Source: a virus
Direction: 5' to 3' (one strand)
Virus record (IMG/VR): IMGVR_UViG_3300032278_000125
Location: 1-22,663 of that record
DNA: 22,663 nt
The notes under the pieces were generated by a model. That model did not search any database. It was not told where the DNA came from and was given only the letters and a program-made list of their open reading frames with translations. Numbering within the stretch: position 1 is the stretch's first letter; every line of letters starts with the position of its first letter. Both the position numbers and the translations under genes were made by a program. Positions 3 to 14,453 of this stretch are shown piece after piece.

Positions 3-149
3 CATGTCGTGCCGCATGATGGCGACTTCGATCGGTTCTGGACGCGCGACAACTGGCAGCCGCTCTGCAAGCCGTGCCACTCGCGCAAAACGCTCGCCGA
101 AACCAAGGCTCGCCGCCCGAGCCGCTTCCAGAGGGAGAACACCGCATGA
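3..149 (+). CDS. HNH endonuclease, C-terminal fragment (5' end outside window)
   Basis: The reading frame that is open from the left edge to a TGA at 147-149 encodes the last 48 residues of an HNH nuclease. The fragment shows the end of a beta-beta-metal core: a V-V-P-H segment, then D-N-W-Q-P-L-C, then K-P-C-H-S-R-K-T, which are the usual central Asn and last metal-binding His of phage HNH enzymes, with two of the zinc-knuckle cysteines. Phage HNH proteins of this kind usually sit near the terminase genes and can be needed for genome packaging; here a 2.7-kb accessory operon lies between. The stop overlaps the next start as ATGA. The N-terminal half is not visible, so the full length and start are unknown. 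The assignment rests on the motif and is fairly secure for a fragment. Confidence 0.8.
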   Translation, partial: HVVPHDGDFDRFWTRDNWQPLCKPCHSRKTLAETKARRPSRFQRENTA

Positions 150-649
150 CCGATCGATCGCTTCTACGTATTGACAGCAAGCAAGCCGCCGAGATGATCG
201 GCGTCACGCCGACCACGATCCGCACCTGGGCCGAGGCCGGGCGCTTCCCGTCGGTGCCCGGCGGTAAGTATGGGCGCAATCAGATCCGCCCGACGATCGC
301 CGACGTCGAGGCCGAGGCCGAACGGTGGCGCACGAAGCTCGCCGCCCGCGCCGAGGTGCAGGCCAAGCGCGACGCCGCGCGCACGTTGAAGCAAGCGCGG
401 GCCGATGCGCGCGTCGAGGCAATGCTGACCTCGTCGGATAAAGTCGACGCCGACCTCGCCGAGATCCGCGTGCTGCTCGAAGATTTCAAGCGGCAGTTTA
501 CCGACCTGCCCGGCGCGGTGCAGCGGATCGAGTCGCTCATTCTGGCGACGCACGACCAGGCGATCACGAAGCCGCCGAACGGTGGCGGCGAACCGCTGCA
601 ACGGCGGTTGATCGTTCCGCTGCCGACGACACCGCCCCGCGTGAGCTGA
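146..649 (+). CDS. Helix-turn-helix DNA-binding protein with helical C-terminal region
   Basis: 167 residues. Residues about 8-45 form a MerR/excisionase-like helix-turn-helix: S-K-Q-A-A-E-M-I-G-V-T-P-T-T-I-R-T-W-A-E-A-G-R-F-P, followed by a wing containing G-G-K-Y-G-R-N-Q-I-R. The remainder (about 55-150) is charged, Ala/Arg/Glu-rich and predicted helical, probably a coiled coil, ending in a proline-rich tail. The in-frame ATG at 74 would add 24 residues inside the HNH gene. The ATG at 146 is preferred because it has a purine-rich site (gagggagaa) just upstream and overlaps the HNH stop as ATGA. It is probably a phage transcription regulator or a DNA-recognition protein. There is no evidence of the target site. 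A terminase-associated role is possible but not shown. Confidence 0.75.
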   Translation: MTDRSLLRIDSKQAAEMIGVTPTTIRTWAEAGRFPSVPGGKYGRNQIRPTIADVEAEAERWRTKLAARAEVQAKRDAARTLKQARADARVEAMLTSSDKVDADLAEIRVLLEDFKRQFTDLPGAVQRIESLILATHDQAITKPPNGGGEPLQRRLIVPLPTTPPRVS

Positions 650-879
650 TGCCCGAGTCTGCGCCCTTGACTGTTGCCCTGCGCGGCGGCCTGCGCGTGT
701 CTGTTCCTGCCCTGGTGTTGCTGCTTTCACTAGAACAGGACGGCCGCGACGTGGTCGTGCGCGCGGGGCAGCTCGTTGTCGACCCGCCGACCGGGAACCA
801 GTCGCCGCGCGATCTCGACGTGGCGGCGTATCGCCGCGAGCTGATCGCGCTCGTGCGCTATTGCGAGGGTCAACTATGA
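649..879 (+). CDS. Small protein resembling a TubC-type docking-like fold
   Basis: 76 residues, start overlapping the previous stop by one base (TGATG). The layout is a hydrophobic N-terminal segment (V-S-V-P-A-L-V-L-L-L-S-L), an acidic beta-hairpin-like stretch (D-G-R-D-V-V-V-R-A-G-Q-L-V-V-D-P-P) and a C-terminal helix (Y-R-R-E-L-I-A-L-V-R-Y-C). This pattern of helix, hairpin and a final A-Y-R-x-E-L-x-A-L-V-R helix resembles small phage proteins related to the TubC N-terminal docking domain. That resemblance is from memory of the family pattern, not a search. Function in the phage is unknown. Its next neighbour starts inside its stop codon (ATGA), so it is a real, coupled operon member. Confidence 0.65.
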   Translation: MPESAPLTVALRGGLRVSVPALVLLLSLEQDGRDVVVRAGQLVVDPPTGNQSPRDLDVAAYRRELIALVRYCEGQL

Positions 880-1007
880 AGTGCTGCATTTGTGAGATCA
901 CGATCGTCGGCTACGGACACAACGCCGAGCCAGTCCAGGTCGGCAGGTGTTGCGACTTGTGCAACGCGGTCCGCGTTATCCCGGCACGGCTTCTAACAAA
1001 ACCATGA
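876..1007 (+). CDS. 43-aa four-cysteine zinc-binding-type miniprotein
   Basis: ATG at 876 overlaps the previous stop as ATGA; stop TGA at 1005-1007, which itself overlaps the next start at 1004. The product begins M-K-C-C-I-C and contains G-Y-G-H-N-A-E-P-V followed by G-R-C-C-D-L-C-N and ends with V-I-P-A-R-L. The two clusters, C-C-x-x-C-like and C-C-x-x-C, are spaced as in a small zinc ribbon. Proteins with this G-Y-G-x-N-A-E-P-V plus G-R-C-C-D-x-C-N layout are widespread among small phage and bacterial ORFs of unknown function, as far as I recall. Both flanking junctions are four-base overlaps, which strongly supports that this short frame is translated. The role is unknown; a protein- or nucleic-acid-binding adaptor is a guess. 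Confidence 0.8.
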   Translation: MKCCICEITIVGYGHNAEPVQVGRCCDLCNAVRVIPARLLTKP

Positions 1008-1186
1008 CCGAGTCACAATCCGAACGGCTGCTGCGCGCCCTCGAAGACCTGGTCGACGAGGTGCGCGCCACCAAGCACGAGATCTGTGTGCTCCGCGTCG
1101 ACCTGATCAACCGCTGGCAACCGGCGGCGGTCGAGGCGCCGCGCGAGGCGCGACCCGACGGGCCGACCACGCGGGGCAGTCGTTGA
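1004..1186 (+). CDS. Small helical protein of unknown function
   Basis: 60 residues starting M-T-E-S-Q-S-E-R-L-L-R-A-L-E-D-L. The ATG overlaps the preceding stop as ATGA. Residues about 5-38 have a leucine/valine periodicity (L-L-x-A-L-E-D-L-V-D-E-V-R-A-T-K-H-E-I-C-V-L-R-V-D-L) that suggests an amphipathic helix able to form a coiled coil; the tail is Arg/Pro-rich and probably disordered. Its stop overlaps a TTG start as TTGA. A longer version starting upstream at 947 is possible but would run through the Cys-rich miniprotein gene in another frame and lacks a coupling site. No family was recognised. Confidence 0.65.
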   Translation: MTESQSERLLRALEDLVDEVRATKHEICVLRVDLINRWQPAAVEAPREARPDGPTTRGSR

Positions 1187-1413
1187 CATGCTGCGCGCTG
1201 GGACCGTGCGATCGGTATCTCGACAACGGGCGCACCTACTTCGCCTGCCCCGTCTGCTGGTGGGGCGAGCAACCGCAGCCGGACATGCGGCGACGACCGC
1301 CTGGCGTGCGCTCTGCGCCCTTGCTGGCCGACGCCGGGCAGACGTCACGCGCTGCACCTACACGGGGCCGCTCGTCGGTGAGGCCGCGCGGCGGCGAGTC
1401 TTCGAGGACGTGA
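1183..1413 (+). CDS. Small Cys-rich (putative zinc ribbon) protein, TTG start
   Basis: 76 residues from a TTG at 1183 that overlaps the previous stop as TTGA. The N-terminal 35 residues carry C-C-A-L-G-P-C and A-C-P-V-C-W-W-G, a plausible C-C...C...C-x-x-C zinc ribbon. The second half is Arg/Ser/Pro-rich and low in complexity, so it may be poorly conserved. The stop (1411-1413) overlaps a GTG in frame with the next large gene (GTGA), the same junction type as in the rest of this operon. An alternative is that the downstream gene begins earlier, at an ATG at 1188, and that this frame is only partly used. Third-position G+C does not decide between the two frames in 1290-1410. Function unknown. 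Confidence 0.5.
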   Translation: MTCCALGPCDRYLDNGRTYFACPVCWWGEQPQPDMRRRPPGVRSAPLLADAGQTSRAAPTRGRSSVRPRGGESSRT

Positions 1414-2282
1414 GCGCCGATCCACTAGTGCGGCAGTTGATCGCCTTGCGTCGAGCCAGGGGCGAGTACTTCGTCGATCAACCTTGGAAGGCGATCGCGG
1501 AGCAACGAACCATTGCCGTCGCGATGGCATCGGCGCGGAAGCTCGTGCACCTGGACAACCGACCCTACGGCGACAGCGAGCGCGGCTATCTTTTGTCGAG
1601 CATCCTAGCGGCCGAGACGTTCGCGTTGTCGCACGACCTGACGAACCTTGCGGCAGACGCACCGATGCCGAGGCACGTTATCGACTCGGACCTGTTGCCG
1701 TTTCGGTCGATGTATCTCGCCTTCGAGGCTGAGTTTCAGACCGAGCTACGGCAGCACGGCAGCAGCGCAGAGCAGGCCGAGGCGGTCGGACTCCAGTTAC
1801 TCGGGCAGGATGACGGCGTCGCTGTTGTCGTTCATATGGAACGCCCTGATAATGCCTGGCCGATCGCGCATGATGTCCACATCAGATACGGGCAGACGTT
1901 TCCCGATGACATCCGAGCCAGGGATCGCAGTACGGTTCGATGGGCGCTCGCGATCCTTTCGCTGATCAACTCACACTACACCGACACCGACGACTGCACG
2001 CTGCCGAGGGCGTGGCGACGCGGCAAAGAGTTCGCCGCATACAAAGAGCAACAGATCCGCGTTGTGCGTCTGCGACGCCTGGCGACGGGCGAACCCAACG
2101 CCGACGCGAGTGAGGACGACGGGCAGCGTCGGGCGTATCGTCGCCGATGGATTGTGTCGGGGCATCATCGCGCCCAGTGGTATCCCAGTCGCAAGGCGCA
2201 CCGCGTGATCTGGATCGCCCCGCACATGAAGGGGCAGCAGGGCGGCGACGTGATCGAGAAGGCGTACATGGTGACGCGATGA
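1410..2282 (+). CDS. AcrVA2-like phage protein (C-terminal W-Y-P-S / W-I-A-P region)
   Basis: 290 residues from a GTG at 1410 (GTGA overlap with the preceding stop). An ATG at 1188 in the same frame would add 74 mostly Arg/Ala-rich residues over the Cys-rich ORF and looks less likely. The C-terminal 45 residues contain R-R-W-I-V-S-G-H-H-R-A-Q-W-Y-P-S, then H-R-V-I-W-I-A-P-H-M-K-G. I associate this signature with the C-terminal domain of phage proteins related to AcrVA2, an inhibitor that lowers Cas12a production, and with similar proteins in many phages and plasmids whose hosts lack Cas12a. The middle is helical with a conserved-looking H-Y-T-D-T-D segment. Function here is inferred only from that motif; it could equally be a general phage protein of unknown role. 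No catalytic residues are recognised. Confidence 0.6.
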   Translation: MSADPLVRQLIALRRARGEYFVDQPWKAIAEQRTIAVAMASARKLVHLDNRPYGDSERGYLLSSILAAETFALSHDLTNLAADAPMPRHVIDSDLLPFRSMYLAFEAEFQTELRQHGSSAEQAEAVGLQLLGQDDGVAVVVHMERPDNAWPIAHDVHIRYGQTFPDDIRARDRSTVRWALAILSLINSHYTDTDDCTLPRAWRRGKEFAAYKEQQIRVVRLRRLATGEPNADASEDDGQRRAYRRRWIVSGHHRAQWYPSRKAHRVIWIAPHMKGQQGGDVIEKAYMVTR

Positions 2283-2545
2283 ACGCGTTCGGAATTACGC
2301 GCGACGACCTGGCGGCGATGAACGATCAAGACAGGGCACAGGTAATTCGGCTTATCGCGAGGCACAAACGTCTCGTCGCGAGGGCGATCGAGTTCGGGAT
2401 CTGCGAACGGTGCAAGCGGCACGACACCACGGTCGACGAGCGCTACTCGTTCGGCGTCTATGCTGGGATCGTGTGCCGACGTTGTGCGCTCGGCTACCTG
2501 GATCGCTGCGGCTTGCGACCTGAAGGCCAGGGCGCGCGATTCTAA
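2279..2545 (+). CDS. Small zinc-finger-like protein, copy 1 of a tandem duplication
   Basis: 88 residues from an ATG overlapping the previous stop as ATGA. Residues about 1-38 are a helical N-terminal extension. The conserved unit is I-C-E-R-C, then Y-S-F-G-V-Y-A-G, then C-R-R-C-A-L-G-Y and C-G-L-R-P-E-G-Q-G, giving two C-x-x-C pairs separated by about 26 residues, a typical zinc-binding spacing. The DNA of this unit recurs 208 bases downstream in the next gene. The protein ends shortly after the shared unit. No enzyme motif is present; nucleic-acid or protein binding is a reasonable guess. An upstream ATG at 2147 in the same frame lies within the AcrVA2-like gene and is not preferred. Confidence 0.7.
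   Translation: MNAFGITRDDLAAMNDQDRAQVIRLIARHKRLVARAIEFGICERCKRHDTTVDERYSFGVYAGIVCRRCALGYLDRCGLRPEGQGARF
2375..2538 (+). repeat. Tandem duplication, unit A (about 160 bp)
   Basis: This segment recurs at 2583-2746, offset 208 bases. Over the 138-base core (2396-2533 against 2604-2741) I count nine differences by eye, five of them in third codon positions or otherwise scattered. This is a recent intragenic duplication that created the paralogous zinc-finger genes. Confidence 0.9.
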
Positions 2546-2558
2546 AAAGGGACCAGCG

Positions 2559-2786
2559 ATGAACGACAGACACGCGGCCTACGTTGCCAGGGCAATCGAG
2601 CGCGGGATCTGCGAACGGTGCAAGCGGCACGACACCACGGTCGATCTGCGCTACTCGTTCGGCGTGTATGCTGGGATCATGTGCCGACGTTGTGCACTCG
2701 GCTACCGGGATCGTTGCGGCTTGCGACCCGAAGGCCAGGGCACGCGCGCCGACTTCGAGGCGCTCGAAGGACCGGGCAGCTACTAG
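2559..2786 (+). CDS. Small zinc-finger-like protein, copy 2 of a tandem duplication
   Basis: 75 residues. The ATG at 2559 is preceded by a good ribosome binding site (aaaaaggga), unlike the overlapping junctions upstream. It carries the same I-C-E-R-C...C-R-R-C-A-L-G-Y unit as its upstream paralogue, with substitutions such as V-D-L-R for V-D-E-R and M for V before the second C-x-x-C. It has a shorter N-terminal extension and a longer acidic tail (F-E-A-L-E-G-P-G-S-Y). The longer tail may be the ancestral ending, because copy 1 stops abruptly after the shared unit. It is the last gene before a roughly 100-base intergenic gap. Function unknown. Confidence 0.7.
   Translation: MNDRHAAYVARAIERGICERCKRHDTTVDLRYSFGVYAGIMCRRCALGYRDRCGLRPEGQGTRADFEALEGPGSY
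2583..2746 (+). repeat. Tandem duplication, unit B (about 160 bp)
   Basis: Second copy of the segment at 2375-2538. Similarity begins at the valine/alanine codons just before the A-I-E/R-x-G-I-C-E-R-C motif and fades after the E-G-Q-G codons, so the duplication covers the whole cysteine-rich domain but not either terminus. Confidence 0.9.
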
Positions 2787-2888
2787 CACCCAGGGGGGGG
2801 GTCAATCCCGAGAGGGCGCACCCCGACAGCCCGCGCCAGCCCCTTGTGTATATGCTCGCGTTTTCAAAAAGTGGGGGGTATCGACAGA
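2787..2888 (+). other. Intergenic gap with a nine-G run before the ParB-like gene
   Basis: The gap between the accessory operon and the packaging operon contains a run of nine G at 2793-2801, a second G-rich run (ggggggt) at about 2873-2879 close to the start of the next gene, and a short AT-richer stretch around 2846-2872. No convincing -35/-10 pair or terminator was found, although this is the most likely place for a packaging-operon promoter. Confidence 0.4.
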
Positions 2889-3401
2889 ATGAGCCAACAG
2901 CAGCCCGCGCCGAGTGCCTGGCAGAATCGGATCGTGGCCGAGGGCGACGAAGCGCCCGACCAGTTGCTCGCGAATCCGGCCAACTGGCGCATTCATCCGA
3001 AGGCGCAGCAGGACGCGCTCGGCTCGGTGCTTGAGTCGGTCGGCTGGGTGCAACGCGTGCTTGTTAATCGACTGTCGGGCCATGTTGTCGACGGGCACCT
3101 GCGGGTCGCGCTGGCGTTGTCGCGTGACGAACCGACGGTGCCGGTCAGTTATGTCGAGTTGTCGCCCGCCGACGAGGCGCTCGTGCTGGCGTCGCTCGAT
3201 CCGATCGCGGCGATGGCGGGCACCGATAAGGACAAGCTTGCCGAGCTGCTCGCCGACGCGCAGATCAACGACGACGCGCTGCGGGCGGCGATCGCTGACG
3301 TCGCGAACCTGCCGACGGCTGCGACGTCAGCGCAGCGTGACCGCTGCGAGGCGTGCGGCCAGCGGATCGGCGCTCACGTTGTCGCGACAGAGAGGGGCTA
3401 A
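2889..3401 (+). CDS. ParB-like N-terminal domain protein (orphan, with C-terminal Cys pair)
   Basis: 170 residues. After a short Gln/Pro-rich leader, residues about 18-85 match the ParB/sulfiredoxin-like fold found in chromosome-partition proteins and in phage DNA methylases: L-L-A-N-P-A-N-W-R-I-H-P, then W-V-Q-R-V-L-V-N, then the nucleotide-binding-type loop V-D-G-H-L-R and a final hydrophobic strand. No methyltransferase domain follows; the protein ends with a C-E-A-C-G-Q-R-I-G-A-H tail that could bind zinc. Orphan proteins of this kind commonly lie just before the small terminase in phages. The role is unproven; DNA or nucleotide (CTP) binding is the family expectation. The ATG at 2889 is chosen over 2844 because the shorter form starts directly at the recognisable domain leader and follows a purine-rich stretch. 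Confidence 0.8.
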   Translation: MSQQQPAPSAWQNRIVAEGDEAPDQLLANPANWRIHPKAQQDALGSVLESVGWVQRVLVNRLSGHVVDGHLRVALALSRDEPTVPVSYVELSPADEALVLASLDPIAAMAGTDKDKLAELLADAQINDDALRAAIADVANLPTAATSAQRDRCEACGQRIGAHVVATERG

Positions 3402-3403
3402 AT

Positions 3404-3886
3404 ATGCCAGGACGCAAACCGAAGCCGACGGCGGTCAAGCGCCAGGACGGCAACCCAGGACACCGCCCGCTCCCGACGAACGAACCCGAGCCAGTGGTCG
3501 GGCTGCCCGACTGCCCTGATCACCTCGACGACGAAGCGCGGGCCGAGTGGCACCGGCTCGGCGAGCTGCTCGTGCGTGAGCATCGCATGGCCCCGATCTA
3601 CAAGGCGGCGTTCGCGGCGTATTGCGTCGCCTGGTCGCGCTGGGTGACGGCCGAAAAACAGATCCAGCAGTACGGCCTCGTGATCACGGCACCGAGCGGC
3701 TACCTGGTGCAATCGCCCTACGTCGGCATTTCTAACCGTGCCTGGGGGCAGCTCATGAAGGCGCTCGCCGAGCTGGGGATCTCGCCGACGAGTCAAGCGC
3801 GGGCGCAAACGGTCGACGCGCCTGCCGAGGTCGGCGGCAGTTACTTCGAGCAATTCGCGGCGCAGCGATCGACCGGGCGGCGATGA
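3404..3886 (+). CDS. Terminase small subunit, P27 family
   Basis: 160 residues, start preceded by gagagggg. The N-terminus M-P-G-R-K-P-K-P-T-A-V-K-R-Q-D-G-N-P-G-H-R-P-L-P and the following P-x-C-P-x-H-L-D-D-E-A-R-A-E-W-H-R-L block are typical of P27-type small terminases. The central region includes Y-C-V-A-W-S-R-W-V-T-A-E and G-Y-L-V-Q-S-P-Y-V-G-I-S-N, and the C-terminal part L-G-I-S-P-T-S-Q-A-R is the usual ending. The subunit recognises phage DNA and loads the large subunit for packaging into the procapsid. It overlaps the large subunit gene by four bases (ATGA). An ATG at 3353 would extend into the ParB-like gene and is not used. Confidence 0.93.
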   Translation: MPGRKPKPTAVKRQDGNPGHRPLPTNEPEPVVGLPDCPDHLDDEARAEWHRLGELLVREHRMAPIYKAAFAAYCVAWSRWVTAEKQIQQYGLVITAPSGYLVQSPYVGISNRAWGQLMKALAELGISPTSQARAQTVDAPAEVGGSYFEQFAAQRSTGRR

Positions 3887-5589
3887 CCGCCACGCGCCCG
3901 ACGGCTCGCGTACTCAAGCTCGCCACGCGGGCCGCCGCGCTCGACGACTCGCAGGCGACCGGCTACGCGCTCGGCGTGGTGCGGGGCGACGTCATTGCGG
4001 GGCCGTGGGTGCGCCTGGCCTGCGAGCGGCACCTCGGCGACCTGGTCGACGGACCGCGCCGTGGCCTGCGGTTCGATCGCACCGCTGCCGATCATGTGCT
4101 GCGGTTTTTCGAGCACCTGCGACTCGCCGAGGGGCAGTTCGAGGGGCGGCCGTTCACGCCGGAACCCTGGCAGGCGTTCATCCTACAAAATCTGTTCGGC
4201 TGGCAAAGTGCGCCGGGCGTGCGCCGGTTCCGAACGGCCTACGTCGAGGTCGGCAAGGGCAACGGCAAGACGCCGCTTGGCTCGGCTGTCATGCTGTATT
4301 GCCTGCTGGCCGACGGCGAAGCGAGCGCCGAGATCTACAGCGCCGCCACGACGCGCGAGCAGGCGCGGCTCGCGTTTACCGATGCGCGCAAGATGGTCGA
4401 GGCGTCGCCCGAGTTGTCGCGCGCCGTGCGGGTGTCGGCGCACAACCTGAGCCAGATCGGCGGCTACGGGTTCTTGCGCCCGGTGAGTTCGGAACATCGC
4501 GGCCTGGACGGGAAGCGCGTGCACATGGCGCTGATCGACGAGCTGCACGAGCACCGCGACGGCGGCCTGGTCGTTGAAAAGATGCGCGCGGGCATGAAAG
4601 CGCGCCGCCAGCCGTTGCAGTTCATGATCACGAATGCCGGGCACGACCGCACGACGATCTGCTGGCGGCTGCACGAGTACTCGACGCGGTTGCTAGAGGG
4701 CACGGTGGAGAACGATACCTGGTGGTGCTTCGTCTGCTCGCTGGATGACGACGACGATCCACTCGCCGACGAGTCGACGTGGATCAAAGCGAACCCGAAC
4801 CTGGGCGTCTCGATCGGACTTGACTACCTGCGCGACCAGGTGCGCGAGGCGGTCGGGATGCCCGCGAAGCAATCGATCGTGCGGCGGCTCAATTTTTGCC
4901 AGTGGACCAAAACGATCACGCGGGCGCTCGACCTGGCAGCGTGGGATCGGTGCCCGCCGATCGACGACGACGCGCTAGCCGGGGTGCCCGTGTGGGCCGG
5001 GCTAGATCTCGGGCAGTCGTCAGATCTGTCGGCGTTGGCGCTCGTGTGGCAACTGCCCGACGGGCACTACGCGCTGCGCTGTCGGATCTGGCTGCCGGAA
5101 GCGGCGATCGACGCAGAGACGTCGCGCCCGTACGAGCAATGGCTCGCCGAGGGACTGCTCGACCTGACGCCGGGCAGCGTCACCGACTACGACGTGATCG
5201 AGGATGTGGTGCGAAGCGAGTGCCAGGCGCACGCGGTCAAGTCGCTCGCCTACGATCGGCGCTTCGCTCAACAGTTGGCGCACCATCTCGACGCCGACGG
5301 GATCGAAGTCGTCGACCAGCCGCAGGGGTTCCAGCTCAACGAGGCGTGCGTGCGGCTCGGCGAGCTGGTCGCCGACGGTCGCCTGCATCACGACCACGAC
5401 GCGCTCTTGAGCTGGTGCGCCTCGAACCTGTGCTGGCGTACTGGCCGCTACGGCGAGATCCGGCCCGACAAGGATGCCGCGCCCGACAAGATCGATCCGA
5501 TTGTCGCCGCCGTGATGGCGATCCAGCGGTCGATCGCCCAGGTGGATACCAGTAGCGTGTATGAAGATCGCGGCGTGCTGACGTTCTAG
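3883..5589 (+). CDS. terL: Terminase large subunit
   Basis: 568 residues, full family length. The N-terminal ATPase has P-W-Q at about 95-97, a Walker A-type loop G-K-G-N-G-K-T at 124-130, Walker B M-A-L-I-D-E at 215-220 and a coupling motif I-T-N-A-G at 249-253. The C-terminal RNase H-like nuclease has an acidic residue in G-L-D-L-G (D375), a second likely one in A-Y-D-R-R (D458) and the third in K-I-D-P-I (D538). The enzyme cuts concatemeric DNA and pumps it into the procapsid through the portal. The start overlaps the small subunit stop. The portal gene, normally the next gene or two downstream, lies 2.2 kb away because an integration module on the other strand intervenes. Confidence 0.96.
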   Translation: MTATRPTARVLKLATRAAALDDSQATGYALGVVRGDVIAGPWVRLACERHLGDLVDGPRRGLRFDRTAADHVLRFFEHLRLAEGQFEGRPFTPEPWQAFILQNLFGWQSAPGVRRFRTAYVEVGKGNGKTPLGSAVMLYCLLADGEASAEIYSAATTREQARLAFTDARKMVEASPELSRAVRVSAHNLSQIGGYGFLRPVSSEHRGLDGKRVHMALIDELHEHRDGGLVVEKMRAGMKARRQPLQFMITNAGHDRTTICWRLHEYSTRLLEGTVENDTWWCFVCSLDDDDDPLADESTWIKANPNLGVSIGLDYLRDQVREAVGMPAKQSIVRRLNFCQWTKTITRALDLAAWDRCPPIDDDALAGVPVWAGLDLGQSSDLSALALVWQLPDGHYALRCRIWLPEAAIDAETSRPYEQWLAEGLLDLTPGSVTDYDVIEDVVRSECQAHAVKSLAYDRRFAQQLAHHLDADGIEVVDQPQGFQLNEACVRLGELVADGRLHHDHDALLSWCASNLCWRTGRYGEIRPDKDAAPDKIDPIVAAVMAIQRSIAQVDTSSVYEDRGVLTF

Positions 5590-5597
5590 GCGGGAGT

Positions 5598-5626
5598 GCC
5601 GCCGCCGCGAGGATTGCGGCGACGGC
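5598..5626. terminator. Hairpin between convergent terL and integrase genes
   Basis: An 11-base stem (5598-5608 with 5616-5626) and 7-base loop lie between the two convergent stop codons. On the plus strand it has one C-A mismatch. On the minus strand that position is a permitted T-G pair. No T-run follows on either side, so it may be a weak terminator or a transcript-end stabiliser. Confidence 0.4.
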
Positions 5627-5636
5627 CTGGGCGGGT

Positions 5637-6779
5637 CTATGCGGTGAGCGCGATCGCCGCGACGGCGTCGGCCTTGCGTTTGTCGCTGGCGTGCACGTAT
5701 CTGTGCAGCACCATCGTCGTCGACTTCCATCCGCCGATCGCGGCGATCGTCGTGGCGTCGAATCCGGCCTCGGCCATTCTGGTCGCGGCGGTGTGGCGGA
5801 GCGAGTGAAACGTCACGCCGCCATTTTTCCGGCCATATGTGACCCCCGCGCGTTCGCAGGCGCGCTCGAAGATGTCGCGCACGCGATCTTTCAGCCCGGC
5901 GGGATCTTTGCGCGTTCGCAGCGCGGCGAAGACATGCGGGCACCGCGCGCGGTTGTCGGTGCGGCACGTTTCGCACGGCCCGGTCGCGCCCGTGTGAATG
6001 TGCCGGGGAAGCTTCGCGAGTTCGTCGCGCAGTTTTGGCGATACCGGCACCGTGTAGGCTTCGCCGTTTTTCGGATCGGGCACTCTGATTTTGTCGCCTT
6101 TAATGTGCCCATATTCGAGGCCGATACAATCGCCGAGCCGCATCGCCGTGTAATACGCGAGCGCCACGAACGCGCGCTCGGCACCGGCCAGGGCGTCGAG
6201 GATACGCCCGGCGTCGGCAGGCGTCAGGACTTGCGCCTCGTACTGTGTCGCCCGCAGGCGCTTGTGCCCGACGAGCGGCGACGCGGTCAGCTCACCGGCC
6301 TCGACCGCCGACGCCAAGATTACCTTCAGTTCGTCGAGGTCGCGGTTCACGGTCGACGCGCTGACGGTTTTTGTTCTGACGGTCGACCATTCGTCGACCA
6401 TCTTGGCCGTGATCCGGTGCAGGCGTTTCGATCCGAACACCGCGATCAAGCGGTCGATCCGGGATCGGTCAGTCCGGCCGCCGTGCTTCCGCTGCCGCAG
6501 CTTATGTTCGATATACCAGGCGGCGAAGTCGGCAAAACGCGGCGAGGTTTTCTTCTGCGCGATGCCGACCGACCCCTGCGCCCGCGCCGTGATCTGCGTC
6601 GCGCGCAACGTGATCGCGTCGTTGATCGCGCTCTTCCCGCCCGCGACGATGCCCGTCGAGATCCGCGCCCTCGGCAGGTCGCCGACGGCGGGCAGGCGCA
6701 TCCAGAAGTACGGCGATTTCGGCTGGCGATAGAGGCCAGTGCCGTCGAGTGCCTTGCGTGCTTTTTCGTGGTTAGTCAT
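5637..6779 (-). CDS. int: Tyrosine recombinase / phage integrase
   Basis: 380 residues. The N-terminal part (about 75-165) is a SAM-like core-binding domain. The catalytic domain shows R214 in T-A-M-R-L-G-D, K237 in D-P-K-N-G-E, H325 and R328 in H-S-L-R-H, W351 in G-G-W-K-S, and nucleophile Y361 in L-H-R-Y-V-H, so the active site is complete. A Cys-rich insertion (C269, C272, C280, H282) between the K beta-hairpin and the H-x-x-R helix could bind zinc and is uncommon. The start overlaps the upstream helix-turn-helix gene as ATGA, and both are transcribed from the promoter at 7212-7240. It catalyses site-specific integration and excision of the phage genome. The attachment site was not identified. 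Confidence 0.95.
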   Translation of the reverse strand: MTNHEKARKALDGTGLYRQPKSPYFWMRLPAVGDLPRARISTGIVAGGKSAINDAITLRATQITARAQGSVGIAQKKTSPRFADFAAWYIEHKLRQRKHGGRTDRSRIDRLIAVFGSKRLHRITAKMVDEWSTVRTKTVSASTVNRDLDELKVILASAVEAGELTASPLVGHKRLRATQYEAQVLTPADAGRILDALAGAERAFVALAYYTAMRLGDCIGLEYGHIKGDKIRVPDPKNGEAYTVPVSPKLRDELAKLPRHIHTGATGPCETCRTDNRARCPHVFAALRTRKDPAGLKDRVRDIFERACERAGVTYGRKNGGVTFHSLRHTAATRMAEAGFDATTIAAIGGWKSTTMVLHRYVHASDKRKADAVAAIALTA

Positions 6780-6964
6780 TTCGATCCTCTTTTGGGGCGG
6801 CCAGGTTTGCCGAGTTTCCGGTTGAGTAAGCGCCGCCGCTCGGCGGGCGTCAAGACGAACACGCCGCCGATCGTGCGCGGCGTGATATCGAGGGCGTCGA
6901 GTAGTTGGTGTACGCGCTGGCGTGACACGCCAAGCTCGACCGCGACGTCGCTGACACTAAACAC
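6776..6964 (-). CDS. Small helix-turn-helix protein, likely excisionase/recombination directionality factor
   Basis: 62 residues from a GTG start. The sequence F-S-V-S-D-V-A-V-E-L-G-V-S-R-Q-R-V-H-Q-L-L-D-A-L forms a clear helix-turn-helix at residues 2-25, followed by a wing (T-I-G-G-V-F-V-L-T) and a short helix plus a basic Lys/Arg/Gly/Pro tail. The size, the winged-helix layout and the four-base overlap with the integrase start are typical of excisionases, which bend attachment-site DNA and direct the integrase. It could instead be a small regulator of the integrase promoter. The GTG overlaps the end of the upstream gene by eight bases. Confidence 0.75.
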   Translation of the reverse strand: MFSVSDVAVELGVSRQRVHQLLDALDITPRTIGGVFVLTPAERRRLLNRKLGKPGRPKRGSK

Positions 6965-7172
6965 GATCGAGCCTCGTGCCGAGCAACTGGCCGACCTTGT
7001 GGCCTTGCGGATCGTTCGCCGCGATCTCGGCGGCGAGGGTGTCGAGTTGGCGACTGAGCGCGAACGCCGTGGCGTCGTTGACCTGGTCGCGGTCGAGCCG
7101 CGTCCAGACTTGCACGTAGGCGTCGAGCCGTGCGGCCTGCGCCAGCTCGGCGGTGTTCTGTGTCTTCGTCAT
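6957..7172 (-). CDS. Small helical protein of unknown function in the integration operon
   Basis: 71 residues starting M-T-K-T-Q-N-T-A-E-L. Mainly helical with alternating Ala/Leu and charged residues (A-R-L-D-A-Y-V-Q-V-W-T-R-L-D, then A-L-S-R-Q-L-D-T-L-A-A-E-I). The ATG at 7172 is chosen because an aggag motif precedes it. An ATG at 7202 in the same frame lies only a few bases from the predicted transcription start and has no room for a ribosome site. It is the first gene of the integration operon, directly downstream of one of the two duplicated promoter modules. No family was recognised. Confidence 0.6.
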   Translation of the reverse strand: MTKTQNTAELAQAARLDAYVQVWTRLDRDQVNDATAFALSRQLDTLAAEIAANDPQGHKVGQLLGTRLDRV

Positions 7173-7211
7173 CGTGCCTGCTCTCCTATGCGTTGCCGTC
7201 ATGGCCCTTTA

Positions 7212-7240
7212 ATACTATGTAAACCCTTGACACGCGTCAA
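7212..7240 (-). promoter_or_regulatory. Promoter of the integration operon, with overlapping operator-like inverted repeat
   Basis: On the minus strand: -35 TTGACG (plus 7235-7240), a 17-base spacer, -10 TAGTAT (plus 7212-7217). A dyad TTGAC-N4-GTCAA covers the -35 (plus 7227-7240), as expected for a repressor operator. It lies 40 bases before the start of the 71-aa gene, and the predicted transcript start is near 7205. Confidence 0.75.
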
Positions 7241-7267
7241 CCACAAAGCGACACGCGGGCGGGTTTT
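7220..7267. repeat. 48-bp promoter/operator module, copy 1
   Basis: Matches 7589-7636 at 43 of 48 positions, counted by eye. All differences fall in or next to the centre of the TTGAC-N4-GTCAA dyad. The module is bounded by AAACCC and GGGTTT, which are themselves inverted repeats, and includes an invariant 23-base block on the side upstream of the -35 (plus 7245-7267). Confidence 0.9.
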
Positions 7268-7274
7268 GTTTTGC

Positions 7275-7305
7275 AAAAAAAACGGCCGCCAGGCGGCGGC
7301 CGTTT
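7275..7305 (-). terminator. Strong intrinsic terminator after the 67-aa gene
   Basis: A perfect 11-base stem (7280-7290 with 7295-7305), a 4-base loop and, on the minus strand, an eight-T run (plus A7275-A7282). It lies just after the stop at 7338 and before the next minus-strand promoter, so it separates the two leftward transcription units. Confidence 0.9.
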
Positions 7306-7337
7306 GTCGGTGCGGGCGAAACTATGAGCTGGGCGGA

Positions 7338-7541
7338 TTATCTGTCGCAGTCGTCTAATTCAACCGAGCCGCTCACGTCTGCCTGTGTGATCTCGATTGC
7401 CGTGTTGTCGGCGAATCCGTCGCCCTCTAGGCGGCCCAGTCCCTCGACCGCCTCCGCGATAGAAACGGCGGCGTCTTTGGCGCTGTCGGCCGTGAGGAAC
7501 CGGATATCGACCGTGACCGAGTAGTGTTTTTGGGATGTCAT
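7338..7541 (-). CDS. 67-aa protein of unknown function under the duplicated promoter
   Basis: Starts M-T-S-Q-K-H-Y-S-V-T-V-D-I-R-F-L. The layout suggests a strand (Y-S-V-T-V-D-I-R-F), a helix (D-S-A-K-D-A-A-V-S-I-A-E-A-V-E-G-L) and further strands (T-A-I-E-I-T-Q-A-D-V-S-G-S-V-E-L) with an acidic end. No helix-turn-helix is visible, so it is not an obvious repressor. The ATG at 7541 has a good aaaggag site eight bases upstream. The possible ATG at 7571 would be at or before the transcript start. It forms a single-gene transcription unit with its own promoter and terminator, which suggests a regulated leftward product, perhaps expressed in the lysogen. Function unknown. Confidence 0.7.
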   Translation of the reverse strand: MTSQKHYSVTVDIRFLTADSAKDAAVSIAEAVEGLGRLEGDGFADNTAIEITQADVSGSVELDDCDR

Positions 7542-7580
7542 TAAACTCGCTCCTTTATGTGTGGCCTTCATGTTGGAGTT

Positions 7581-7609
7581 ATTATCGTTAAACCCTTGAC
7601 GCCTGTCAA
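7581..7609 (-). promoter_or_regulatory. Strong sigma70-like promoter with overlapping operator-like inverted repeat
   Basis: On the minus strand: -35 TTGACA (plus 7604-7609), a 17-base spacer and -10 GATAAT (plus 7581-7586), close to consensus. The dyad TTGAC-N4-GTCAA (plus 7596-7609) covers the -35. It drives the 67-aa gene starting at 7541, with a predicted transcript start near 7574. Confidence 0.85.
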
Positions 7610-7636
7610 GCATAAAGCGACACGCGGGCGGGTTTT
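7589..7636. repeat. 48-bp promoter/operator module, copy 2
   Basis: Second copy of the module at 7220-7267, 369 bases away in the same orientation. The spacer-to-minus-10 portions differ outside the module, so the two promoters share their -35 and operator but have independent -10 regions. Confidence 0.9.
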
Positions 7637-7689
7637 CTTCGGCCCGCGACGGGTTGCGTTGTCAACGCTTCGCGCGAGACGATCTGCTC

Positions 7690-7848
7690 GTGTACGCCGA
7701 CGCGACGTTTGTGATCGGCTGGCTGATTGCGATCGCCGGGTGCGCCCTGGTCGCGCCATCGCTGGCCGTGATTGTCACCGGGTTAGTACTCGTCAGCGCG
7801 GCGGTGACGTGGGAGCGGAACAACAGAGACGATGAGCCTGATCAGTAG
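7690..7848 (+). CDS. Small two-helix membrane protein upstream of portal
   Basis: 52 residues if started at the GTG at 7690; a TTG at 7654 would add 12. Almost the whole length is hydrophobic in two blocks: F-V-I-G-W-L-I-A-I-A-G-C-A-L-V and L-A-V-I-V-T-G-L-V-L-V-S-A-A-V, separated by A-P-S, then a charged tail. This predicts a helical hairpin in the membrane. Small membrane proteins next to the portal are common in phages of this type, but their function is unknown; holin-like activity cannot be excluded. The ribosome binding site is weak. It overlaps the portal start by 17 bases. Confidence 0.55.
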   Translation: MYADATFVIGWLIAIAGCALVAPSLAVIVTGLVLVSAAVTWERNNRDDEPDQ

Positions 7849-9112
7849 ATTGCTCGAATCGCGGGCAGGACTGGCGCAGCCGAGTCGCTGGTTGCTTGAC
7901 GCCTGGGGCGGCGGGGCGACACCTAGCGGCGCGACCGTGACACACGAAACGGCGCTGCGCCATCCTGCCGTTTATCGCGCCGTGAGTTTGATCAGCGCGA
8001 CCGTAGGATCGCTACCGCTCAAGATCTATCGACGCCTGCCGAACGACGGCAAGATCGCCGAACCGGCGCACCGGCTCTATCCGCTGCTGCACGATTCGCC
8101 GAACGGCGAGCAGACCTCGATGGATTTCCGCGAGGCGCTCCAAAGCGATCTGTGTCTCTACGGCAACGCGTTCGCGCAGATCGTGCGCGACCGTCAGCAA
8201 CGCATCACCGCGCTGTATCCACTCCAGGCGCGACGGATGCAGATCTCGCGCGACAAGGATCTGCGGCTCGTGTATTCATACCAGACCGACGTGGCGCGGC
8301 ACGAGTTCGTCGCCGACCCGCTGCACCCGCCGATCCTGCACCTGCGATCCTTTAGCGCCGACGGCGTTGTCGGGCGTTCGCCGATCGAGGTCGCACGCGA
8401 TGCGGTCGCCGGGGCGATTGCGGCCGACACCTACGGGCAGACGTTTTTCGGCAACGGCGCGGCACCGGGCGGCGTCCTGCAAGGGCCGCGCGGCGGGCGA
8501 CTCACCGAGCAGGCGCACCAACGCCTGCGCTCGTCGTGGGATGCCGCGCACAAGGGGGCGGCACGCGCGCATCGCGTGGCGCTGCTCGAAGACGGATGGA
8601 CGTGGAACCCGATCAGCGTCGGCAATCGTGACAGCCAGTGGATCGAAGCGCGGCAGCTCGGCGTGCTCGACATCGCGCGGCTATTCGGCCTGCCGCCGTG
8701 GACACTGTACGAAATGGAACACGCCGCAACCTACAACTCGGTCGAGCAGCAGGCGATCGACTTTGCGCGCGAGATCTCGGGCTGGCTGCGTCGGTGGGAA
8801 TCGCAGCTCGATAAAACGCTACTGTCGGCCCGCTCGACGCGCACGCACTTTTCCAAGTTCGTGATCGAGGGCATGTTGCGCGGTGATATTCAGACGCGGT
8901 ATCAGGCGTACGCGACCGGCAGGCAATGGGGTTGGCTGTCGATCAACGACGTTCGCAAGCTCGAAGACATGAACCCGATCGGCGACGCGGGCAACGACTA
9001 CATGCAGCCGCTTAACATGCAGGCGGCAGGAGCACCCGACGACCCGGTCGACGCAATCAGCGACGAGCAGTCGGCGCGCTTGCTGGCGCTCGCGACTGGC
9101 GAACCGAACTAA
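7832..9112 (+). CDS. Portal protein, HK97 family
   Basis: 426 residues, normal for the family. Diagnostic blocks include H-P-A-V-Y-R-A-V-S-L-I-S-A-T-V-G-S-L-P-L, L-Y-G-N-A-F-A-Q-I-V-R-D, L-H-L-R-S-F-S-A-D-G-V-V-G-R-S-P-I and G-L-P-P-W-T-L-Y near residues 285-295. The twelve-subunit portal ring occupies one capsid vertex, is the channel for DNA packaging and the platform for connector assembly. The C-terminal section (R-G-D-I-Q-T-R-Y-Q-A-Y-A-T-G-R-Q-W-G-W-L-S-I-N-D-V-R) is also typical. The ATG lies within the end of the small membrane-protein gene, implying coupled translation. Confidence 0.96.
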   Translation: MSLISRLLESRAGLAQPSRWLLDAWGGGATPSGATVTHETALRHPAVYRAVSLISATVGSLPLKIYRRLPNDGKIAEPAHRLYPLLHDSPNGEQTSMDFREALQSDLCLYGNAFAQIVRDRQQRITALYPLQARRMQISRDKDLRLVYSYQTDVARHEFVADPLHPPILHLRSFSADGVVGRSPIEVARDAVAGAIAADTYGQTFFGNGAAPGGVLQGPRGGRLTEQAHQRLRSSWDAAHKGAARAHRVALLEDGWTWNPISVGNRDSQWIEARQLGVLDIARLFGLPPWTLYEMEHAATYNSVEQQAIDFAREISGWLRRWESQLDKTLLSARSTRTHFSKFVIEGMLRGDIQTRYQAYATGRQWGWLSINDVRKLEDMNPIGDAGNDYMQPLNMQAAGAPDDPVDAISDEQSARLLALATGEPN

Positions 9113-9121
9113 GGGGGCACG

Positions 9122-9709
9122 ATGGCAGATCGCGAAGTTCGCACCCTAACCCGACGCGTCGAGGCGCGTGCGTCTGGCGACGACGCCGGGCCGCACAACG
9201 AGATCACCGGCTACGCGGCGATCTTCGACACGCCGACGACGATCGCGGGCGCGTTCACCGAGACGATCGATCGCGGCGCGTTCGATGACGCCCTCGGCGA
9301 CGACGTGCGCGTCTTGTTTAACCACGACCCGAGCCGGTTACTCGGTCGCACCAAAAGCGGCACCGCGTCGATTGCGGTCGACGAGACGGGACTGCGCTAC
9401 CTGGTGCGCCCGCCGGACACCGCGACCGGCCGCGAGGTGCTTGAGTTGCTGCAACGCGGCGACATTTCTGGCAGCTCGTTCGGGTTCCGCGTATTACAAG
9501 ATCGCTGGACTGACGGCGCAACGCCGGGCGACTTGCCGGTGCGACATTTAGAACGCGTCGCCCTGTATGACGTTTCGCCCGTGACGATGCCCGCGTATGC
9601 AGAGACGACCGCCGAGGCGCGCAGCCAGGCGGCAGCCCGTACACACACGAACGACAGCGCGACCGCGCAGCGACGTCTGACGGTCGCCCGGCACACGATG
9701 CACGAGTAG
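9122..9709 (+). CDS. Prohead protease, HK97 family
   Basis: 195 residues, with aaggggg just upstream of the ATG. The herpesvirus-assemblin-like fold is shown by I-T-G-Y-A-A-I-F-D-T-P, then the catalytic His in V-L-F-N-H-D-P (H68) and the catalytic Ser in D-I-S-G-S-S-F-G-F (probably S119), followed by L-Y-D-V-S-P-V-T-M-P-A-Y. It cleaves the N-terminal scaffold (delta) domain of the capsid protein during head maturation, and then itself. Its position between portal and capsid is canonical. The C-terminal 40 residues are Ala/Thr/Arg-rich and likely removed or disordered. Confidence 0.95.
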   Translation: MADREVRTLTRRVEARASGDDAGPHNEITGYAAIFDTPTTIAGAFTETIDRGAFDDALGDDVRVLFNHDPSRLLGRTKSGTASIAVDETGLRYLVRPPDTATGREVLELLQRGDISGSSFGFRVLQDRWTDGATPGDLPVRHLERVALYDVSPVTMPAYAETTAEARSQAAARTHTNDSATAQRRLTVARHTMHE

Positions 9710-9747
9710 GACAACGGTTTAACACTCGCGTCGGCGCTCGCGTCATC

Positions 9748-9759
9748 GGCTAGCTAGCC
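9748..9759. repeat. 12-bp perfect palindrome before the capsid gene
   Basis: GGCTAGCTAGCC lies in the 86-base gap between protease and capsid genes. It could be a protein-binding site or part of an mRNA structure in the capsid leader, but no promoter was recognised around it. Confidence 0.4.
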
Positions 9760-9795
9760 CACACGCAGCAACGCGGCCTTACTGAGGGGGATCGC

Positions 9796-10977
9796 ATGAA
9801 GCTACGTGAACAACGCGCCAAGCTGGTCGAACAGCAGCGCCAGATTGTCAAGGCCGCCGACGACGAGTCGCGGGGCATGACAGTCGACGAGCTGACGAAG
9901 TTCGACGCAATCAACGACGACATCGACGCACTGAAGGCGACGATCGACCGTGCCGAAGCGGTCGAGGCCGAAGAGCGGGCCGACGTCCAGATCGCCGAGC
10001 CAATGGAAACGCGCACACCGTCAACGGTGAGCGTGCCCGTACACACCGAGACGCGCATCGGCGTCGGGTCCGACGAGTACCGCGAGGCATTCGACGGCTA
10101 CCTGCGAAGCGGCGTTATGGAGCGTCGTGCGCTCGAAGTCGGCACGAACAGCGAGGGCGGCTACCTGGTGCCCGATAGCTGGTCGAATCAGCTCGTCCAG
10201 GCGCGCAACGCAGAAAACGTGATGCGCCAGTTGGCGACCGTCGTGACGACGACTAGCGGCACCTTCAACGTACCGACGGTTAGCTCGCAAGGCACCGCAA
10301 GCTGGACCACCGAGGAAAGTGCTCATACGGAGAGCGATCCGGCGTTCGGTATTGTGCAGTTCTCGGCCTACAAGGCCTCGACGCTGGTGAAGGTCAGCGA
10401 CGAGTTGCTGAACGACAACGCCTACGACCTCGAAGGCTACCTCGCGCAGGAGTTCGGCCGACGGATCGGCGTGTTGGAGGAAGCTGCATTTTGCGATGGT
10501 TCTGGCTCTGGACAGCCCAAGGGAACGATCTACGACGCGACCGTGGCGGTAACAGCGGCGGGCGCGGCGGCGGTGACTGCTCTGGAGTTGGTAAGCCTGT
10601 ACCACAGTCTCGGTCGGCAGTATCGCGATCGGGCGTCGTGGCTTTTGCACGACAACACGGTGCAACTAGTCAGGAAACTGGTTGATGGTGATTCACAATT
10701 CTTATGGCAGCCAGGCCTCCAGGCTGGGGCACCCGACCGGCTACTCGGTCGCCCGGTCTACACGAGCGACGGGATCCCGGTTCCGACGACGGCGAAAAAG
10801 TCGATCGTATTCGGTGACATCGGATCGGCGTACTGGATCGCAGACCGTGCCGGGATCTCGGTGCAACGTCTCAATGAGTTGTATGCCGCGAACGGCCAGG
10901 TCGGGTTCATTGCATCGAGCCGCACCGACGGCGCAAACGTACTCACCGACGCGGTCAAGGTTCTCCAGCAGGCCTAG
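9796..10977 (+). CDS. Major capsid protein, HK97 fold
   Basis: 393 residues, preceded by a strong gaggggga site. Residues 1-70 are a charged coiled coil (M-K-L-R-E-Q-R-A-K-L-V-E-Q-Q-R... to about A-E-E-R-A-D-V), the expected delta/scaffold domain that the upstream protease removes. The mature part starts around residue 100-120 with the signature N-S-E-G-G-Y-L-V-P-D, followed by the P-domain and E-loop patterns A-S-W-T-T-E-E-S-A, V-K-V-S-D-E-L-L-N-D and E-F-G-R-R-I-G-V-L-E-E-A-A-F, and ends with the D-G-A-N-V-L-T-D-A-V strand. It forms the icosahedral shell. Whether it crosslinks as in HK97 cannot be judged by eye. A terminator-like hairpin follows it. Confidence 0.96.
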   Translation: MKLREQRAKLVEQQRQIVKAADDESRGMTVDELTKFDAINDDIDALKATIDRAEAVEAEERADVQIAEPMETRTPSTVSVPVHTETRIGVGSDEYREAFDGYLRSGVMERRALEVGTNSEGGYLVPDSWSNQLVQARNAENVMRQLATVVTTTSGTFNVPTVSSQGTASWTTEESAHTESDPAFGIVQFSAYKASTLVKVSDELLNDNAYDLEGYLAQEFGRRIGVLEEAAFCDGSGSGQPKGTIYDATVAVTAAGAAAVTALELVSLYHSLGRQYRDRASWLLHDNTVQLVRKLVDGDSQFLWQPGLQAGAPDRLLGRPVYTSDGIPVPTTAKKSIVFGDIGSAYWIADRAGISVQRLNELYAANGQVGFIASSRTDGANVLTDAVKVLQQA

Positions 10978-10998
10978 TCGGGCGGTGCTGAACTGCTC

Positions 10999-11038
10999 AA
11001 GGTGGCGCGGGTGCGTAGTGCGCCTGCGCCGCCTTTTT
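10999..11038 (+). terminator. Terminator-like hairpin after the major capsid gene
   Basis: A 16-base stem with three G-T wobbles (10999-11014 with 11020-11035), a 5-base loop and a five-T run at 11034-11038. It follows the capsid stop by 21 bases and would end or attenuate the transcript, raising capsid mRNA over the connector genes. Confidence 0.8.
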
Positions 11039-11056
11039 CCAGAGAGGCGACACACG

Positions 11057-11272
11057 ATGCAAATCAGAATGTTGACGTCGATCGCAGGTGCGGATCTGAC
11101 AGCCAGGCCCGGCGAGGTCGTCGAGTGCGAGCCGTTACTCGCGGCGCGATTGATCGACAGCGATCAAGCGGTCGCAGTCGACGGTGCGCCCGAAGCGGCG
11201 GCAGTCGGCGGTGCGCCGGAAGTCGCGACGACGGCACGCGCGCAGCCGCGACGCCGGGGCAAGCGTGGCTAA
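11057..11272 (+). CDS. Small protein between capsid and connector genes
   Basis: 71 residues with a gagaggcg ribosome site. The N-terminal half M-Q-I-R-M-L-T-S-I-A-G-A-D-L-T-A-R-P-G-E-V-V-E followed by A-A-R-L-I-D-S-D-Q-A-V matches a small beta-rich family often encoded in exactly this position in HK97-like phages. The tail is an Ala/Pro-rich then Arg/Lys-rich linker with a near-repeat (V-D-G-A-P-E-A and V-G-G-A-P-E-V). Function is unknown; a minor head component or capsid-associated factor is plausible from position. The next gene starts inside its last codons. Confidence 0.75.
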   Translation: MQIRMLTSIAGADLTARPGEVVECEPLLAARLIDSDQAVAVDGAPEAAAVGGAPEVATTARAQPRRRGKRG

Positions 11273-11858
11273 GTGGTCGGATATCTGGCACGAGCTGGTC
11301 GAGGTATCGGCCCCGAGTGCCGAGCCGATCACGACCGCCGAGGCGAAGGCGTTTTTGCGGGTCGACCATTCGACGCAGGATGATCTCGTTGACGATCTGA
11401 TCGCGGCGGCGCGGCAGCGTGTCGAGGCCGACACCGGGCGCAGCCTGATCACGACAACTTGGGATCTGACGTTTGATCAGTTTCCCGACGAGCGGGCGAT
11501 CGTGCTGCCACGGTTGCCGCTGGCGTCGGTAACGTCGATCACGAGTTATGACGAAGACGACGCCTCGGCGACGTTCGCCAGCTCAAAATACCTCGTCGAT
11601 ACGGCGCAGGGACGGATCGCGCTGAACGACGACGAAGACTGGCCGACGGATCTGCGAACGCATAGCAGCGCCGTCGTGCGGTTTGTTGCGGGCTACGGGG
11701 CGAGCGGGTCGAGTGTGCCGCAACCGTTGCGGCTCGCGCTGTATCAGCTCGTGGCGCACTGGTTCGAGCAGCCCGATCCGATTGCCGGGATCGAGCAGGT
11801 CGACGTCGCCTACGCCGGGCATGTGGCGGCGTATCGCGGCGGGCAGGGGATCGGCTGA
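11265..11858 (+). CDS. Head-tail connector protein (HK97 gp6-like)
   Basis: 197 residues from a GTG at 11265 that overlaps the previous gene by eight bases, with a ggggc site upstream; the in-frame ATG at 11184 would add an Arg-rich stretch and is rejected. Residues about 14-50 hold the family hallmark P-I-T-T-A-E-A-K-A-F-L-R-V-D followed by D-D-L-V-D-D-L-I-A-A-A-R-Q-R-V-E, and the C-terminal half has V-R-F-V-A-G-Y-G and P-L-R-L-A-L-Y-Q-L-V-A-H-W-F-E. The protein forms a ring under the portal that prepares the head for tail joining. The layout matches the gp6 / phiE125 gp8 group. Confidence 0.88.
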   Translation: MAKWSDIWHELVEVSAPSAEPITTAEAKAFLRVDHSTQDDLVDDLIAAARQRVEADTGRSLITTTWDLTFDQFPDERAIVLPRLPLASVTSITSYDEDDASATFASSKYLVDTAQGRIALNDDEDWPTDLRTHSSAVVRFVAGYGASGSSVPQPLRLALYQLVAHWFEQPDPIAGIEQVDVAYAGHVAAYRGGQGIG

Positions 11859-12624: not shown

Positions 12625-12627
12625 GCG

Positions 12628-13050: not shown

Positions 13051-13277
13051 CCGACCGCGATCGATCGTGCCATCGGTGCGGCGCGTCGGCTGAGTCGCGC
13101 GTCGAGTCGTGCGGGTTCGGCGAAGTGCGATCCGAGGTCTGCGGCGTGTGCGGGGCCGAGTGCCCCGAGCAAACTGCCGGGACTTTTTCAGGCGCGAAAA
13201 ATCCGCGATCGAAACGGCGGCGCGAGACACGACACCAGCACGAGGCCGAGCGCGATCTCGAACGCGCGACGAGGTGA
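13047..13277 (+). CDS. Small Cys-rich protein in the head-tail operon
   Basis: 76 residues, ATGA overlap with the gp10-like gene. C-H-R-C-G, then C-G-F-G-E-V-R-S-E-V-C-G-V-C-G-A-E-C give two C-x-x-C pairs about 24 residues apart, a zinc-ribbon spacing. The C-terminal 30 residues are strongly basic and charged (R-S-K-R-R-R-E-T-R-H-Q-H-E-A-E-R). Zinc-ribbon proteins are unusual in the connector segment of a head-tail operon. Not recognised; could bind nucleic acid. Confidence 0.65.
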   Translation: MTDRDRSCHRCGASAESRVESCGFGEVRSEVCGVCGAECPEQTAGTFSGAKNPRSKRRRETRHQHEAERDLERATR

Positions 13278-13282
13278 TCAGA

Positions 13283-14450: not shown

Positions 14451-14453
14451 CAG

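Follow-up and report, generated by a model that had tools for sequence, protein, structure and literature searches.

A phage protein distantly related to AcrVA2 and probably a member of the AcrVA2/FinQ superfamily

The window, that is, the whole stretch of DNA that was analysed, is an IMG/VR virus fragment of 22,663 nucleotides (22.7 kb). Genes for TerS, TerL, portal, protease, capsid, and tape measure, recognised by position and sequence, together with a tyrosine integrase gene, mark the phage as a temperate siphovirus of the HK97-like type. The terminase large subunit gene (3883..5589, + strand; Pfam TerL_nuclease, E 1e-39) belongs to the packaging module that lies downstream of the small genes described below. 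A minus-strand block (5637-7541) lies inside the late gene cluster, between the terminase large subunit and the portal; it contains the integrase (5637-6779), a small HTH gene (6776-6964), and two small ORFs. The search for the phage host found no near DNA match among phage records and no tRNA in the phage, and the nearest relatives of TerL and the major capsid protein belong to phages of unrelated hosts (42-45%). The same phage is represented, in permuted form, by a 29 kb contig (G001). Positions 1-2869 and 7933-22663 are common to both at 99.9%, and G001 has extra genes. The ends of G001 fall exactly at 2869 and 7933; the ParB-TerS-TerL-integrase block (2870-7932) is absent from it, which may reflect an assembly break or a variable segment.

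The window begins with a series of short genes, all on the + strand. The first is the 3' end of an HNH endonuclease gene (3..149; Pfam HNH, E 2e-7), which is complete in an overlapping contig (L005:4351-4740). It is followed by an HTH (MerR/HTH_17-type) DNA-binding protein (146..649; Pfam HTH_17, E 2e-6, read with the longer 74-646 frame), a small ORF without assigned function (649..879), a tiny CxxC ORF (876..1007; MKCCICEI...CCDLC) with 4-base overlaps on both sides, a small coupled ORF without assigned function (1004..1186), and a zinc-ribbon-like small ORF (1183..1413) with a TTG start and CxxC pairs (TCCALGPC...ACPVCWWG), for which a Pfam scan gave no match. The gene under study, ORF 1410-2282, comes next. 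Overlaps of the same type as at its own start occur at the upstream junctions 146-149, 649, 876-879, 1004-1007, and 1183-1186; ORF 1410-2282 is therefore part of a series of small, tightly coupled genes. On its 3' side lie a zinc-ribbon-like ORF (2279..2545; CERC...CRRC) and a second, near-duplicate zinc-ribbon-like ORF (2559..2786). These two near-identical ORFs result from a direct repeat of 165 nt (91%; 2374-2538 and 2582-2746), the first copy of which is held by ORF 2279-2545. Three sister contigs end at or shortly past this repeat region (2374-2746). A setting of HNH, helix-turn-helix, and zinc-ribbon genes had been described in an earlier reading of the sequence alone (hereafter the sequence-only reading); the HNH and HTH assignments were borne out by Pfam, and the zinc ribbons are recognised as CxxC pairs by sequence only.

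ORF 1410-2282 (1410..2282, + strand) encodes a protein of 290 aa from a GTG start. The start overlaps the stop codon of the preceding ORF 1183-1413 by 4 bases (GTGA), and the stop overlaps the start of the next ORF as ATGA (2279-2282). The frame is also open from an ATG at 1188; this alternative start was rejected on the GTGA overlap at 1410, which supports the GTG start proposed by the sequence-only reading. GC content by codon position (0.67/0.46/0.76) is coding-like. The ORF is found at 99-100% identity in three further IMG/VR contigs of the same phage species, one of which is G001; in two of these sister contigs, the differences amount to 5 synonymous and 3 non-synonymous changes. ORF 1410-2282 is a genuine gene, not a chance ORF. 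The two motifs quoted in the sequence-only reading are present as given, at residues 245-260 (R-R-W-I-V-S-G-H-H-R-A-Q-W-Y-P-S) and 267-275 (I-W-I-A-P-H-M-K-G). Both fall in the core of a basic C-terminal domain (residues 243-276, 2136..2237, + strand; RRWIVSGHHRAQWYPS...VIWIAPHMKG). The core forms four short beta strands in the AlphaFold model, and its net charge is +8 over 34 residues.

Neither Pfam nor NCBIfam gives a match for the protein, and Pfam gives none for its 14 first relatives. The C-terminal quarter (residues 212-285) matches the profile of PHROG_15934, a family of unknown function (E 1e-15). All 15 aligned members of PHROG_15934 match as well (best E 3e-120), and the family can be aligned as a whole. 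PHROG_15934 includes gp103 of Streptomyces phage Yara and gp029 of Corynebacterium phage phi16. By tblastn, the same C-terminal domain was detected in 51 actinobacterial plasmids and in the same two phages, where nearly all of the matches are annotated as hypothetical. Profile-guided scans yielded 164 stretches of viral sequence, of which 80 were kept, as well as 73 loci in genomes that are almost all from Actinomycetota. The closest full-length relatives, L022 and L024, share 29-30% identity with the protein. These comparisons place the ORF 1410-2282 protein in a large family of phages and actinobacterial plasmids that has no name as yet.

The C-terminal consensus of the branch is REYxHRWIVRGHWRxQWYPSRxxHRPxWIAPHVKGPxxAPL. 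The motif is kept in more than 100 proteins: H252 and G275 are invariant; W247, V249, G251, and R254 are conserved in more than 90%. The ORF 1410-2282 protein differs from the PHROG_15934 consensus at two core positions, R250S and W253H.

The C-terminal segments had been read as a signature of AcrVA2-related proteins, and the relation to AcrVA2 was examined at the sequence level. The annotated AcrVA2 of Shewanella phage Y11 (ORF43; PMC10846135) was used as reference; it matches 7CI1, one of the structures of AcrVA2 from Moraxella (PDB 7CI1/7CI2), at E 1.5e-72 and is therefore a sound reference. When the PDB sequences were searched from the ORF 1410-2282 family by phmmer and with profiles, 7CI1 was not returned. 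Two weak candidates from the profile searches, Alba (E 0.9) and alpha-glucosidase (E 0.4), were discarded as chance matches. Hmmsearch between the family and AcrVA2 was not significant in either direction. A single AcrVA2 query found no relatives in IMG/VR, and an alignment query found 70 loci. Profiles of the branch (111 sequences) and of the AcrVA2/FinQ set (58 sequences) were then compared using hhalign. The alignment spans about 100 columns, beginning at the last long helix and running to the C-terminus, in the register GHW..W..W(I/L)xP (E 0.001). The score of 30.2 exceeds all of 150 controls with permuted columns (mean 14.1, s.d. 2.8, maximum 25.5) and the two reversed controls (16 and 17); the probability assigned by hhalign itself is only 15-24%.

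The AcrVA2/FinQ set has the signature P-H-I-R-R-(G/A)-H-W-H...W-x-G...W, in which H287, R289, and H292 are invariant in the 58 sequences, and P-H-x-R...H-x-H is conserved at 98-100%. Of these, the branch keeps H292 (H252 in the ORF 1410-2282 protein) along with the neighbouring G and W positions; H287 and R289 are absent. Of the two fully conserved histidines, one persists, together with the tryptophans, and the pattern G/A-H-W ... W ... W-(I/L)-x-P, which was taken as the mark of a homologous C-terminal domain, is found in the branch. The protein resembles AcrVA2 and its phage homologues (Y11 ORF43, the Mcat phages, and RisingSun gp126) in the basic C-terminal domain and in R-(G/A)-H-W-x-x-x-W...W-(I/L)-x-P. 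It differs from AcrVA2 in that P-H-x-R is lost and in that there is no sequence match to AcrVA2 itself.

The predicted fold was compared in the same way. The AlphaFold model of the ORF 1410-2282 protein has a pLDDT of 82.9 and a pTM of 0.79. Foldseek against the PDB gave no significant match, and 7CI1 was absent among the top 50; the methyltransferases, Whirly proteins, and NEAT domains that were considered as candidates are all below significance. Against BFVD, 19 proteins were matched at E <1e-3, with a clear gap past rank 20. They include proteins of three jumbo phages, Dickeya phage JA13 (E 3e-6) and Erwinia phages Yoloswag (6e-6) and RisingSun (3e-5), with probabilities of 0.99-1.0. The three phages were also found by tblastn with the annotated AcrVA2, and the lengths of their CDSs (333, 341, and 347 aa) equal those of the BFVD entries. 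TM-scores of the model against its matches in BFVD are modest (0.27-0.46), which means that either the domains are arranged differently or the models are inexact.

Erwinia phage RisingSun gp126, which matches 7CI1 by sequence (E 8e-12), was modelled as a positive control for the PDB search. 7CI2 and 7CI1 were its only significant PDB matches (E 4e-14 to 2e-12, with 4e-14 for 7CI2). The PDB search therefore detects closer relatives, and the ORF 1410-2282 protein lies one step further out. This RisingSun protein (L186:1201-2202) is annotated as a "putative mycothiosynthase", yet it is an AcrVA2 homologue.

By comparison of the models, the order of helices and strands agrees with that of AcrVA2, including the four-strand C-terminal domain described for AcrVA2 (PMC10846135). 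A helical N-terminus, a mixed alpha/beta middle, and a four-strand C-terminal domain, the arrangement that defines the superfamily fold, are all found in the model, with Foldseek E-values of 3e-6 to 3e-5. Two of the helices of AcrVA2 are shortened or absent, one past the first strand block and one before the C-terminal domain. Taken together, the profile-profile score and the fold of the model indicate that the relationship is real and that the C-terminal motif quoted in the sequence-only reading does mark it, and the protein very probably belongs to the AcrVA2/FinQ superfamily. It is a distant relative of AcrVA2 and not an ortholog; the term "AcrVA2-like" used in the sequence-only reading is too strong for a remote relative that keeps the signature in part.

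FinQ is a second characterised member of this superfamily. The plasmid search with AcrVA2 gave 607 records, of which 563 are conjugative, and finQ is annotated beneath the best enterobacterial plasmid matches. FinQ shares 25% identity with phage AcrVA2 over 95%, and matches 7CI1 by phmmer (E 4e-18) in the middle and C-terminal domains. In the E. coli IncI plasmid NZ_CP123589.1 (L104:1974-3053), the annotated FinQ start (2277) drops about 100 N-terminal residues that can be aligned to AcrVA2. These sequence comparisons show that FinQ and AcrVA2 share ancestry. The literature search found no paper that names FinQ and AcrVA2 together, although unpublished or uncovered work may do so. The C-terminal region of FinQ (IncI1 plasmids R820a and R621a), KRPHIRRGHWHTYW...RLIWLPPVPV, resembles that of the ORF 1410-2282 protein, ...WIVSGHHRAQWYPS...VIWIAPHMKG. 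The two proteins differ in their settings: the plasmids that carry FinQ are conjugative, and its target is the F tra operon (PMC8744291), whereas ORF 1410-2282 is in a phage.

FinQ is reported to terminate F tra transcription at multiple sites (PMC8744291). According to PMC13131331, a review that cites a preprint, AcrVA2 causes a translation-dependent loss of cas12a mRNA through recognition of the nascent LSKT peptide; the review presents this as the first documented destruction of a prokaryotic mRNA by nascent-peptide reading. According to these papers, the common outcome is the loss of a specific transcript, and a common mechanism might be shared. The suggestion of a broader, mRNA-directed function in the sequence-only reading fits with FinQ being an AcrVA2 homologue. 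Within the superfamily, a lowering of transcripts is reported only for AcrVA2 (PMC13131331) and FinQ (PMC8744291), neither of which belongs to the branch of ORF 1410-2282.

The genomic settings across the branch are varied. A constant partner gene was sought across the whole branch, and only the Streptomyces sub-branch has one. In these relatives (L080, L089, L083, and L013; viral contigs and a plasmid), an HTH gene lies directly upstream, mostly with a 4-base overlap. It matches Pfam Aca2_YdiL (PF08965) above the cut-off in three scanned proteins, and generic HTH models score about equally. The pair suggests an aca-like arrangement, that is, an aca-acr pair in reverse order. The plasmids of the branch are annotated without phage packaging genes nearby. 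Since the branch occurs on both phages and plasmids in such different surroundings, ORF 1410-2282 is an accessory gene.

Based on the analogy with AcrVA2 and FinQ, we favour, with modest confidence, a role of the ORF 1410-2282 protein as an accessory silencer of one gene of the host or of a rival element, other than Cas12a. That it acts by transcript silencing is close to an even chance, and is held somewhat more tentatively. The silenced transcript would probably come from a competing element or from the defence genes of the host. Target choice may fall to the variable N-terminal and middle domains, which, by analogy with AcrVA2, would read a nascent peptide or some other feature of a single target. 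The small, strongly basic C-terminal domain, with its invariant G-H-(W) and W-I-x-P, may contact RNA or the translating ribosome, and this contact would trigger the loss of the target mRNA. Transcript silencing, the division of labour between the domains, and the single target are all inferred by analogy.

The protein might instead share this fold but act in counter-defence in the classical way, by binding and blocking a mature host defence protein (CRISPR-Cas or other) and leaving the mRNA unaffected. AcrVA2 has been crystallised with an internal Cas12a peptide, according to PMC13131331; the Aca2/YdiL-like gene upstream of the Streptomyces relatives and the position of ORF 1410-2282 in an accessory cluster of small genes are also in line with direct contact. 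On the other hand, the two members of the superfamily whose function has been reported lower transcripts and not only protein activity, and the most conserved part of the protein is its very basic C-terminal domain, for which contact with nucleic acid or the ribosome fits better. We regard direct blocking as unlikely, though a serious alternative.

A FinQ-type fertility-inhibition or exclusion factor, which acts against competing plasmids or phages by lowering their transfer or lytic genes and not against a host defence gene, also appears unlikely. It would agree with the homology of FinQ to AcrVA2, with the predominance of conjugative plasmids among the plasmid-borne AcrVA2/FinQ relatives, and with the frequency of the PHROG_15934 family on actinobacterial plasmids. 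However, the copy in the window is carried by a phage, and of the 51 plasmids with the branch, only 1 was typed as conjugative.

A role as an accessory protein of DNA packaging or head assembly is quite improbable. ORF 1410-2282 lies between the HNH/HTH genes and the terminase, 1.6 kb upstream of the terminase large subunit gene; HNH, ParB-like, and terminase genes adjoin it; the closest relative, L022, has its gene between TerL and portal; and AcrVA2 in Shewanella phage Y11 lies about 5 kb from the terminase. Among 50 related viral records, a terminase is present in about 25, but within about 4 kb of the gene in only 5, and the packaging reading was rejected on this distance. Moreover, the branch is also found on plasmids, and the fold matches AcrVA2 homologues, not a structural protein.

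The sequence-only reading had suggested that the host be checked for type V systems. Cas12a (TIGR04330) was found in none of the 41 bacterial host genomes carrying the PHROG_15934 branch and in 1 of 397 Actinomycetota genomes; the single match indicates that the search works. This lone Cas12a is on a contig (G277:C100; L259 and L260) with 24% GC and in-frame TGA codons, which is probably a foreign contig in the bin, from a TGA-recoding bacterium. The branch itself occurs in 3 of the 397 genomes, one of which is the centre genome itself. Because Cas12a was not found in the 41 host genomes, it is very improbable as the target of the ORF 1410-2282 protein. A true AcrVA2 ortholog inhibiting type V-A CRISPR-Cas12a in the host of this phage would share the superfamily membership and the C-terminal motif, and a phage host with Cas12a is possible, but the absence of orthology by sequence, the unconserved P-H-x-R signature, and these TIGR04330 counts make it highly improbable.

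Returning to transcript silencing, a wider proposal can be made, although it is speculative and on balance unlikely in its full form. AcrVA2 and FinQ might be two examples of one widespread class of phage and plasmid silencers, in which recognition of a nascent peptide leads to destruction of a rival or host mRNA; ORF 1410-2282 would then lie in a third large branch, and the "premature termination at many sites" in the tra operon described for FinQ would be translation-coupled mRNA decay. If FinQ and the more than 100 proteins of phages and actinobacterial plasmids share one superfamily, silencing coupled to translation may be a weapon widely used between mobile elements and not a curiosity of Moraxella. 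The branches of the superfamily would then offer families with new target specificities. For FinQ, known for decades as an inhibitor of F transfer transcription, the old puzzle of tra transcript cutting would become directly testable.
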